A program made the translations under genes and the position numbers. Positions 9,988 through 14,574 of a stretch of DNA of 64,000 nucleotides are shown in pieces. The notes under the pieces are model-generated. The model ran no database searches and had not been told where the DNA came from. It saw only the letters and a program-made list of their open reading frames with translations. Within the stretch, counting starts at the first letter, position 1. Each line of letters begins with the position of its first letter. The stretch is from Agarivorans sp. TSD2052 (lineage in GTDB: Bacteria > Pseudomonadota > Gammaproteobacteria > Enterobacterales > Celerinatantimonadaceae): positions 4,367,501 to 4,431,500 of the forward strand of contig NZ_CP096670.1 of the NCBI RefSeq assembly GCF_023238625.1, written 5' to 3'.

Positions 9988-11058
9988 ATGAGCGTGAATG
10001 ACACGACCAAAGCCAATGCTCTAGAGCCTAGTGAACTCAGTGATGCAGAAGCCGTAACCGCAGCAGACAAAGCACGAGCCGATCAATTAAAGCCAATTAG
10101 CGGCGCGCTAGTCACCCACATGTACACCGCCGATCCTTCTGCACACGTATTTAATGGCAAAATTTATGTTTATCCTTCGCACGATGTTGATAATGGCCAA
10201 CCCTTAAATGATAACGGTGACCATTTCGATATGCGTGATTATCACGTATTTTCTCTAGACCGTCCGTTTGGGGTTGTCACAGACCATGGCAATGCGCTAG
10301 ACGTTAAAGACGTTGCTTGGGCTGAGAAACAAATGTGGGCGCCAGATGCTGCAGAAAAAGATGGCAAATACTATTTGTACTTCCCAGCACGCAACTACGA
10401 CGGTATTTTCCAAATTGGAGTGGCGGTGGGCGACCAACCTGAAGGGCCATTCACACCACGAGATAAAGCGATTGAAGGCAGCTTCAGCATTGACCCTGCG
10501 GTATTTAAAGACGACGACGGCAGCCACTATATGTACTTTGGTGGGTTATGGGGTGGTCAGTTACAAAATTGGCGCAATGGTGAATTTGGTGAAGATCAAT
10601 TCCCTGCCGATGATCAACCTGCGCTTAAACCACTAGTAGCAAAACTGACTGACGACATGTTGGAGTTTTCTGAGACGGTTAAAGAAATCGACATTGTTGA
10701 CGAAAATGGCGAGCTACTGCTTGCTGGCGATAACGAGCGCCGTTACTTCGAAGGGCCTTGGATGCACAAACACAATGGCCGCTATTACTTCTCTTACTCT
10801 ACAGGTGATACCCATAAAATTGCCTACGCAAGCAGTGATTCACCTTATGGGCCATTCCGCTATGAAGGGGTCATACTTGAGCCGGTATTAGGTTGGACCA
10901 CCCACCACTCAATTGTTAAGTATCAAGATAAGTGGTTCTTGTTCTACCATGACAGTACCCTTTCTGCTGGTCAAACGCACTTACGCAGCATCAAAATGGC
11001 TGAGTTGAACATTGATGATAATGGCAAAATTGAAGTGATTGAGCCTTACTACACATAG
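9988..11058 (+). CDS. Intracellular glycoside hydrolase family 43 (arabinofuranosidase/xylosidase-like)
   Basis: 356 residues, single five-bladed beta-propeller catalytic domain, no signal peptide. The three GH43 carboxylates are readable: base Asp49 (ADPSAHVF), pKa-modulating Asp169 (SIDPAVF) and acid Glu255 (FEGPWM). The closest architecture is cytoplasmic arabinofuranosidase/beta-xylosidase acting on imported oligosaccharides from hemicellulose or algal glycans; the exact substrate cannot be read. GAGGAAAC precedes the ATG. No transporter or other glycan gene adjoins. It sits alone between engB and Spot 42, where E. coli has no gene, and may be an acquired single-gene insertion. Confidence 0.88.
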   Translation: MSVNDTTKANALEPSELSDAEAVTAADKARADQLKPISGALVTHMYTADPSAHVFNGKIYVYPSHDVDNGQPLNDNGDHFDMRDYHVFSLDRPFGVVTDHGNALDVKDVAWAEKQMWAPDAAEKDGKYYLYFPARNYDGIFQIGVAVGDQPEGPFTPRDKAIEGSFSIDPAVFKDDDGSHYMYFGGLWGGQLQNWRNGEFGEDQFPADDQPALKPLVAKLTDDMLEFSETVKEIDIVDENGELLLAGDNERRYFEGPWMHKHNGRYYFSYSTGDTHKIAYASSDSPYGPFRYEGVILEPVLGWTTHHSIVKYQDKWFLFYHDSTLSAGQTHLRSIKMAELNIDDNGKIEVIEPYYT

Positions 11059-11516: not shown

Positions 11517-11619
11517 AAAAAAACGCCCCGACAGATGACTGTCGAGGCGGCAAAATAGCCTGTTTCAACTACGTGAAATAAAGGTCTGAAAGATAGAACA
11601 TCTTACCTCTGTACCCTAC
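11517..11619 (-). ncRNA. spf: Spot 42 small RNA
   Basis: Hfq-dependent regulatory RNA of carbon metabolism, repressed by cAMP-CRP in E. coli. The first 40 bases are identical to the E. coli RNA as I recall it (5' GTAGGGTACAGAGGTAAG, then the TTCTATCTTTCAGACC block), and CACGTA follows. It ends in an 11-pair stem (CGCCTCGACAG / CTGTCGGGGCG, loop TCAT) plus a seven-U tail. Length is about 103 versus 109 in E. coli. Its position downstream of polA on the same strand matches E. coli. The central part differs, so targets may differ. Confidence 0.96.
11569..11601 (-). CDS. SpfP-like micropeptide frame inside Spot 42 (10 aa)
   Basis: The ATG in Spot 42 that starts the 15-residue SpfP protein in E. 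coli is conserved with its AGAGGTAAG ribosome-binding site. Here it encodes MFYLSDLYFT and then a stop: the first seven residues match E. coli SpfP, after which one missing T shifts the frame. In E. coli SpfP affects CRP activity. Whether this shortened peptide is made or active is unknown. Confidence 0.45.
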   Translation of the reverse strand: MFYLSDLYFT

Positions 11620-11632: not shown

Positions 11633-11757
11633 GAGTATCACTGCTGAAAAATAAAGCACTTTTTGTAAGGGAATTTCATTTTTTAGGGCTAGACGAGTTT
11701 TTAAATTACGCGAAAAGGTTTTCAAAATTACCATGACTAGACTCGAATTTTTGGCAC

Positions 11758-11802: not shown

Positions 11803-14574
11803 TTAGTGGGCTTCATCCCAATTGTTACCAACACCAGACTCAGCAACTAAAGGTAAATCTAAACTTACCGCTTGCTCCATCAGTTGAGTCAGTTTAGGCA
11901 CTATACGTTCTATTTCACTTTCCAATACTTCAAACACTAATTCATCGTGCACTTGCATTAACATGTTGCAATGCTCGCTGGGTTGGGTGTCTAACCAAGC
12001 AGCCACCGCAATCATCGCCTTTTTAATAATATCGGCGGCGGTGCCTTGCATCGGTGCATTCACCGCTGCACGCTCGGCAGCTTTCTTACGCATACCATTA
12101 CGTGAATTAATCTCAGGTAAATACAAACGACGGCCAAACACCGTTTCAACATAGCCGTGTTCTTGGCAGAAATCTCGTGTACTGTCCATGTAGTCTTGAA
12201 CAGCAGGGTAACGCTCAAAATATCGATTCATATAGTGTTGGGCGTCAGCACGGCCAATACCTAATTGCTTCGCCAAACCAAAGGCACTCATGCCATAAAT
12301 CAACCCAAAGTTAATTGCTTTAGCACTACGGCGCTCATCACTGCTAACTGCCTCAAGTTCTTTGCCAAATACTTCCGCGGCAGTGGCTTTGTGAACATCT
12401 TCCCCCGCGGCAAAGGCTTTCAGTAAACCAGGATCCTGCGAAAGGTGCGCCATAATACGCAATTCAATTTGCGAGTAATCAATCGCCACCAATTTATAGC
12501 CATCGGCAGGGACAAAAGCCTGCCGAACTTTGCGCCCTTCTTCATGACGAATAGGGATATTTTGTAAGTTAGGATCAGTAGACGAAAAACGCCCCGTAGC
12601 CGTTACCGCTTGATGATAAGAGGTATGTACTCGACCAGTACTTGGCTCCACCATTTTAGGCAATTTATCGGTATACGTAGACTTAAGCTTAGATAAACTA
12701 CGGTATTCTAAAATCACTTTAGGCAGTGCGTAATCTAAGGCTAATTCTTGTAATACTTCTTCCGCCGTTGAAGGGGCACCTTTTGGCGTTTTCTTAACGA
12801 CTGGCAGTTCCATTTTCTCAAATAAAATAGTTTGTAACTGCTTAGGCGAGCCCAAATTAAATGGTTCGCCAGCCAACTCGTGCGCTTGCTTCTCTAAGCC
12901 ATCAATGCGTTCGCCTAAAGACAAACTATGCGCAGCTAAACGAGAGCTGTCGATGCGTACACCTTGGCGCTCGGTTTGCGATAATATACTGACAAGCGGC
13001 AACTCAACATCTTCAAACAAGCTTTTCAGCTTAGGTTGCTGCTCTAATTTTGACCATAGGGTTTGATGCAAGCGTAAAGTAACGTCAGCATCTTCTGCCG
13101 CATAAGGCGCGGCGACTTCAAGTTCAATTTGGTTAAAGGTGAGTTGCTTAGCCCCCTTACCCGCGATGTCTTCAAATTTAATGGTTTTATGCTGGAGGTA
13201 TTGTAATGACAGTGAATCCATATCATGACGAGTCAAGGTGCTGTTAAGCACGTAAGACTCTAACATGGTGTCGTACTTGATGCCTTTCAGGGCAATATCA
13301 TAACGCGCTAAGACGCTAGCATCGTATTTTAAGTTTTGACCGACTTTGGCTTTGTTAGGATCTTCCAACATCGGCTTCAGTTTCTCGAGTACCCAATCGC
13401 GGTCAAGTTGCTCAGGGGCATTAAGGTAGTCATGGGCAACCGGTAAATAAGCAGCTTTACCCGCTTCTACTGCAAACGATAAACCGACTAACTCAGCCTG
13501 CATATAGTTTAGCGAGGTGGTTTCGGTATCAATGGCAATCAGTTCTGCGCCCTCTAATTGCTTAAACCACTGTTCAAAATGTTGCTCAGTTAAGATGGTT
13601 TCGTATTCACCTTTCAGTTCAACGACAACCGCTTCAGCGGCATCACTCGTCTGCTCCAGTTCACCACCTGTTGGCAATGCTGAGCTAGATTGATTGCTCA
13701 AAGCCTCACTTAACCAGCGTTTAAATTCTAATTGACCAAACAGCTTAATTAAGGCGTCTTTATCCTCAGGGCTGCGCTGCATGTCATCCATGCTAAAGCC
13801 AACATCGACATCACATTTGATGGTTGCCAATAGGTAAGACAAGCGGGCATCTTCGCCATGTTCGCGAAGTTTTTTCGGCATGGTTTTAGAACCGCGAAAG
13901 CCCAAGGGGGCAACCGCATCAGGATCGGCAAGCAGCGCATCAACACCGCCAATACCTTGTAACATAGCCAAGGCTGTTTTTTCGCCCACACCGGGTAAAC
14001 CAGGAATGTTATCTACCTTGTCACCCATCAATGCTAAGTAATCAATAATTAGCTCTGGCGGTACGCCAAACTTGTCAATTACACCCGCACGATCCATCAC
14101 CGTATCGGTCATGGTATTGATCAAAGTGATGTTCTCATCCACCAACTGAGCCATATCTTTATCGCCAGTACTGATCACCACCGCTTTGTTTTCAGCGGAA
14201 GCTTGTTTGGCTAAGGTGCCAATCACATCATCAGCTTCTACGCCTGGCGTTGCCACCAAGGGCAGTCCCATGGCTTTAATAACCGCATGTAAAGGCTCGA
14301 TTTGACTGCGCAAATCATCAGGCATTGAAGGACGATTAGCCTTGTACTCTTTATAGATGTCATCTCGAAAGGTTTTCCCCTTGGCGTCAAACACCACCAC
14401 TATGTGCTCTGGCTTAAATTGCTTAAGCAAACTGCGTAGCATGTTAATTACGCCATAAACGGCACCGGTAGCCTCACCTTTTGAGTTAGTCAAATGTGGC
14501 GGAGAATAGTACGCGCGGTACAGATAAGATGAGCCATCAACTAATACCAAAGGCTGCTCGGGGAGGGTTGCCAT
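11803..14574 (-). CDS. polA: DNA polymerase I PolA
   Basis: Removes RNA primers and fills gaps in replication and repair. 923 residues from the ATG at 14574; 21 further in-frame codons upstream are not family-like. The N-terminal 5' nuclease has [15 protein letters not shown] and [12 protein letters not shown]. The 3'-5' exonuclease motif I ([12 protein letters not shown]) is intact, so proofreading is likely. Polymerase motifs A ([11 protein letters not shown]), B ([15 protein letters not shown]) and C ([10 protein letters not shown]) are complete. Spot 42 follows on the same strand. A DnaA box lies 94 bases upstream. Confidence 0.98.

Follow-up and report, generated by a model that had tools for sequence, protein, structure and literature searches.

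In Escherichia coli, the small protein SpfP is reported to bind CRP and to block the activation of some genes (PMC11188072, PMC10339803, PMC12119635). Spot 42, the RNA that encodes it, is repressed by cAMP-CRP (PMC12119635, PMC3295665); it had earlier been concluded that Spot 42 does not serve as an mRNA (PMC10339803, PMC3295665). The spfP frame lies within the 5' portion of Spot 42, where its pairing regions are also located (PMC12119635), unlike the sgrT frame, which is reported to lie upstream of the pairing region of SgrS (PMC4021124). For an RNA that outlasts its coding frame, SgrS and SgrT, an unrelated RNA and protein, are a precedent in the literature: in the same account, the small-protein frame is missing in Yersinia and its start codon is lost in E. 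coli O157:H7, and the RNA persists (PMC4021124). VcdRP of Vibrio cholerae is likewise described as a dual-function RNA of carbon metabolism, but it is a different RNA and encodes the 29-residue VcdP. The literature searched on Spot 42 and SpfP yielded no account of a Spot 42 that has lost the frame.

The window, a stretch of 64,000 nucleotides from the genome of Agarivorans sp. TSD2052 (one contig, 4,616,181 bases), contains a single Rfam family above its cutoff, namely Spot 42 (RF00021; 11629..11517 on the minus strand, 95.9 bits against a gathering cutoff of 80 bits, E 1.1e-17, model positions 1-115). By homology, the 5' end of the RNA would be at 11619, with the Rfam model taking in 10 bases upstream of the RNA. 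The covariance-model score above the cutoff, the adjacent polA gene and the terminator of its own identify the locus as spf (Table 1). The likeness to the E. coli system comprises the RNA family, the polA neighbour, the leader, the AUG, the first seven codons, the terminator and the distance of the upstream element, the GTGCTT of which begins 40 bases ahead of GTAGGG in the window as in K-12. Judging by these letters and this spacing, the element may be a promoter or a CRP site; a promoter scan gave no match. Unlike in E. coli, a glycosyl hydrolase family 43 gene lies between spf and engB. This gene adjoins spf in all seven genomes of the window's genus; in the other genera of the family and in the searched loci of families f2 and f12 (families, genera and loci of the order are denoted here by f, g and L numbers), engB is found within the spf flank instead. 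The polA gene is listed from 14637, and the shorter start was taken for the domain search.

Table 1. Features of the spf locus and its neighbours in the window
Feature	Position	Strand	Basis
Spot 42 RNA (spf)	11619 to about 11517	minus	homology; begins GTAGGG like spf of E. coli K-12
Ten-residue AUG frame MFYLSDLYFT ending in UAG, in the position of spfP in E. coli	11569..11601	minus	translation
U-run of three, site of the one-base contraction	11580..11582	minus	letters compared with K-12
Shine-Dalgarno-like GAGG ahead of the AUG	11606..11609	minus	letters same as K-12
Intrinsic terminator (11 pairs followed by seven T)	11524..11549	minus	
Upstream element TTACAAAAAGTGCTTT	11653..11668	minus	K-12 letters and K-12 distance
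Structured 5' region with two competing predicted folds	11580..11617	minus	folding predictions
Possible weak hairpin UUUCA-CGUAGU-UGAAA over former codons 8-13	11563..11578	minus	minimum-energy fold
polA, upstream neighbour of spf	11803..14571	minus	Pfam DNA_pol_A (3.6e-163), exonuclease domains
Glycosyl hydrolase family 43 gene, between spf and engB	9988-11058	plus	Pfam 5e-31

The reference for the letter comparison was spf of E. coli K-12 (NC_000913.3, spfP annotated at 4049917-4049964). The two RNAs are identical over 40 bases, from GTAGGG through AGACCTTT, as the initial annotation had stated for the stretch that includes the ATG. K-12 reads AGACCTTTTACTTCACG and the window AGACCTTTATTTCACG; the T-run is one T shorter in the window, and a C-to-T change follows two bases past the run. 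The AUG (11601-11599) and the Shine-Dalgarno sequence in the 5' region have the same letters as in K-12, and the GAGG may be functional. The frame, however, is not open through the codons for LLxHV: because the U-run after AGACC consists of three U, where E. coli has four, it stops after codon 10 (15 codons in E. coli) and lacks LLxHVI. The earlier claim that one missing T yields this decapeptide instead of 15 residues is thus borne out by the translation.

The three-T state was found in all seven genomes of the window's genus (g1) and in both genomes of a second genus, g4, and all nine share the same 33 nt across the short frame. The change is a single base within a T-run, as a homopolymer sequencing or assembly error would produce, but such an error was rejected as virtually impossible because the contraction is common to nine genomes of two genera; the contraction is real and fixed. 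The other three genomes of the family (one of g2, two of g3) carry four U, and their frames, 13-16 residues long (13 in g3), read MFYLSNLLFHVVKRLI and MFYLSDLLFHVVE; in these three genomes the UAG at which the short frame stops already exists, though out of frame. All 12 genomes of the family retain the ATG, and the pattern that the initial annotation named as speaking against its proposal, neutral substitution after codon 7 together with ATG loss in close relatives, does not occur in this family.

For phylogenetic placement, a tree of PolA ends was built from 87 rows out of 119 loci, with f18 and f21 thinned; 20 of the 139 loci, all from f25/g38, were omitted as having no polA end in the 1500 bases upstream. 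In this tree, g1 and g4 pair as sister genera (support 93; the tool's threshold for marking is 95) and g2, on a long branch, is next to them. A single contraction explains the distribution of three U within the family. Given that g3 groups with f12 (support 84), the window's family is not one clade in the PolA tree, and the deeper branching was not relied on. Unweighted parsimony requires four changes between the frame and no-frame states, in either direction.

The best explanation of the locus is a normal spf gene that makes Spot 42, and, taken jointly with the contraction, it appears probable from the sequence that the SpfP frame has been lost and the RNA kept in an otherwise ordinary Spot 42. 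Under this scenario, the U-run after AGACC would have gone from four to three in the common ancestor of the window's genus and one sister genus, a change that the RNA would have tolerated; the AUG frame would shift after codon 7 and then run into the UAG formerly out of frame, with RNA fold and pairing presumably little affected. The ten-residue product would be without the effect of the 15-residue SpfP on CRP, and the RNA here would thus act by base pairing alone, with Hfq. The window's genome encodes Hfq and a CRP of 212 residues (L275; best match to a solved structure with E 5.4e-125), so the frame loss is not explained by a missing CRP. The other protein with PF00325 (L274) has an N-terminal cysteine cluster and resembles FNR. 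By analogy with E. coli, Hfq-dependent pairing with mRNAs of carbon metabolism and repression by cAMP-CRP are putative features of Spot 42 in this organism. Two observations count against the frame having been lost and the RNA kept: the leader, the AUG and the first seven codons are unchanged, so that the decapeptide may well be made, and the frameless relatives that lack the AUG (below) all score under the Rfam cutoff.

Whether the RNA would tolerate the contraction was assessed by folding. Two alternative folds are predicted for the 5' structured region: an Rfam-like fold, which pairs AGAGGU with ACCUUU and AAGAU with AUCUU, and a second one, which pairs AGGGU with ACCUU and AGAGGUA with UAUCUUU and is the predicted optimum for the window RNA. 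The Rfam-like hairpin takes up three Us, and the fourth is paired further out in K-12; that pair, present both in the Rfam consensus and in the K-12 fold, is lost in the three-U RNA, which counts against the contraction being silent for the RNA. The argument that the loss is silent since the hairpin uses only three Us is weakened accordingly, the more so as the optimum of the window RNA is the other fold. In a comparison of 14 loci, the predicted probability of the Rfam-like fold (AGAGGU with ACCU) was 0.08-0.09 in the three-U genomes; among RNAs with four U it was 0.25 in g3, 0.12 in g2, 0.34 in f25 and 0.06 in f20; it reached 0.73-0.83 in two loci, one each from f18 and f21, and 0.90-0.96 in f6/g9. 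Thus, a fold shift of the three-U RNA relative to g3 is predicted, and the modelled fold balance lies within the range of the four-U relatives of f1 (the window's family), f20 and f25 (0.06-0.34).

Pair counting for the Rfam-like hairpin, based on 32 of the 41 distinct segments (four f15 rows are misaligned; nine segments with replaced or interrupted stems, namely three of f12, four of f7, L024 and L030, were dropped), is mildly supportive of this fold: 95.1% of the cells are paired versus 93.4 in shuffles, with six double-change cells versus 0.8; two pairs show a double change, which 56 of 500 shuffles also attained, and seven further pair types are found, as in 303 of the 500. In several relatives without the AUG, from f2, f15 and f25/g28, a hairpin with different letters is folded in the same place. 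The possible hairpin over former codons 8-13 of the window RNA is missing from the Rfam consensus and from the K-12 minimum-energy fold, and in the stem test it did not rise above shuffles. At the same codons, about 40-60 bases into the RNA, 28 of the 29 f6/g9 loci have an inverted repeat, UCAC...GUGA, and two f6/g31 loci (L207, L211) have quite different yet paired letters, a feature likewise outside the Rfam consensus; most single loci of f6 with a middle hairpin (L018, L178-L204, L273; L207, L211) were no better than shuffles.

An order-wide search for Spot 42 (E <= 0.001) gave 164 matches in 394 genomes, 131 of them above the Rfam cutoff, and frames were read in 153 loci, the remaining 11 being weak matches; given that the search favours E. 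coli-like RNAs, losses are probably undercounted. An AUG lies within bases 12-34 in 140 of the 153 loci (displaced in one, L217). With openness through LxHV as the criterion, the frame is kept in 92 loci, every one with exactly four U, and in none of the 30 three-U loci with an AUG. It is kept in all loci of f18 (29), f21 (33), f25/g38 (21) and f10 (2), in 4 of 5 in f20 and 3 of 12 in f1, and in none of f6 (32), f7 (4), f12 (3), f2 (4), f15 (5) and f25/g28 (3). The 13 loci without the AUG (three of f12, four each of f15 and f2, two of f25/g28) are all beside polA, which is upstream of every f2, f12, f15 and f25/g28 locus. The 29 f6/g9 loci, all with the AUG, have runs of three U in 21, four in 1, five in 3 and six in 4, never fewer than three; their frames end after 4-50 residues (more than 20 in 12 of 29), and their RNAs score 84-106 bits, above the cutoff.

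Among at least 118 named loci with the exact 30-base 5' stretch, a scan biased to intact RNAs, the frame is kept in 116, one of these being cut off by the locus end, and is absent in two Bowmanella among the loci listed. The 71-base 5' part is present in 5374 of 5426 E. coli genomes, in 5367 at 99% or more. Several loci depart from the usual organization: in Bowmanella L120 and L134, the 5' hairpin almost directly abuts a terminator-like stretch, which gives the impression that the central part of the RNA has dropped out, and in f12/g15 (L021, L022, L209) a sub-cutoff Spot 42-like RNA lacks the AUG at its usual position and has its 5' hairpin enlarged by an insert. Among frame-keeping loci, L243 and L244 (f18), L228, L260, L268 and L269 (f21) and Yersinia L051 and L129 have lost the codon-16 stop, and their frames continue to 24 or 31-44 residues.

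The initial annotation had left two options, a shorter but active peptide or loss of coding with the RNA conserved. The first, in which the N-terminal seven residues would be functional and the rest dispensable, appears improbable. MFYLSDL and the leader do have K-12 letters in all nine three-U genomes, the C-terminal end varies among kept frames (13, 15, 16, 24 and 31-44 residues), with the codon-16 stop lost in 2 of 29 f18 and 4 of 33 f21 loci, and the same decapeptide, with UGA as the stop, is encoded in f6/g9 loci L184 and L188. However, the structured 5' region includes the seven codons, none of which varies at any codon position among the nine genomes, f6/g9 retains the leader and most of these codons nearly unchanged though its frames run on, and the short frame is without LxHV[IV] (codons 8-12), which is kept in the 92 frame-keeping loci (LxHV being the selection criterion). 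The second option, loss of coding with retention of the RNA, has the better support, from the score above the cutoff, the pre-existing UAG and the other lineages with scattered frames or no AUG.

Another possibility is that nothing has been lost, with the frame an accidental by-product of RNA conservation and no selected role for SpfP at any time in the window's lineage. Counts over codons 8-15 in the 92 loci that keep the frame gave 5 steps that are synonymous and 19 that are nonsynonymous (expected synonymous share 0.25), as this possibility would have it, and the four-U run is kept in all seven AUG-less loci read in f2 and f12. On the other side, codons 8-13 lean slightly towards synonymous steps (4 of 10, expected 0.26). 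The codon test comprises 11 haplotypes and has low power, with an indel inflating the steps of the L016 haplotype, and gave no clear codon-level signature of coding selection in intact frames. The U-run changed seven times over 2.49 PolA branch-length units in f6/g9 but not once over 3.83 units in f18, f10 and f21 (20 rows), where the f6/g9 rate predicts 10.8 changes (chance of none 2e-5). This constancy fits a constraint on the frame; a constraint on the RNA fits too, and no change was seen over 1.29 units in AUG-less f12 and f2 (7 rows). Furthermore, SpfP activity is reported in E. coli. That SpfP was never selected in this lineage seems possible but rather unlikely.

Conservation of the AUG and the N-terminus was rejected as proof of coding, given that f6/g9 keeps both with scattered frames. 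The sequence UUUCACGUA is present in four AUG-less f15 loci and is one U shorter in the AUG-less L206; because it and the U-run are kept without the AUG, RNA constraint covers part of the apparent peptide conservation. The survey carries the warning that conservation of this frame is by itself no proof of coding selection, parts of the frame being conserved without an AUG.

More tentatively, the U-run could act as a switch, with three Us sufficing for the RNA and the frame staying open only at four or at a number that exceeds four by a multiple of three. SpfP would then ride on an old RNA, with one-base slips converting coding to non-coding RNAs and back at little cost to the RNA, and in some lineages without the frame a second hairpin would have been formed from the former codons 8-13. 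The suggestion of the initial annotation that the locus separates the two roles of a dual-function RNA holds insofar as it offers a natural comparison; the situation is not peculiar to the window, and the codon test does not demonstrate that a function under selection was lost. SpfP and Spot 42 base pairing use shared nucleotides and are hard to separate, and relatives that are one U apart but retain CRP, Hfq and an otherwise unchanged Spot 42 would provide such a comparison for the contribution of the peptide.
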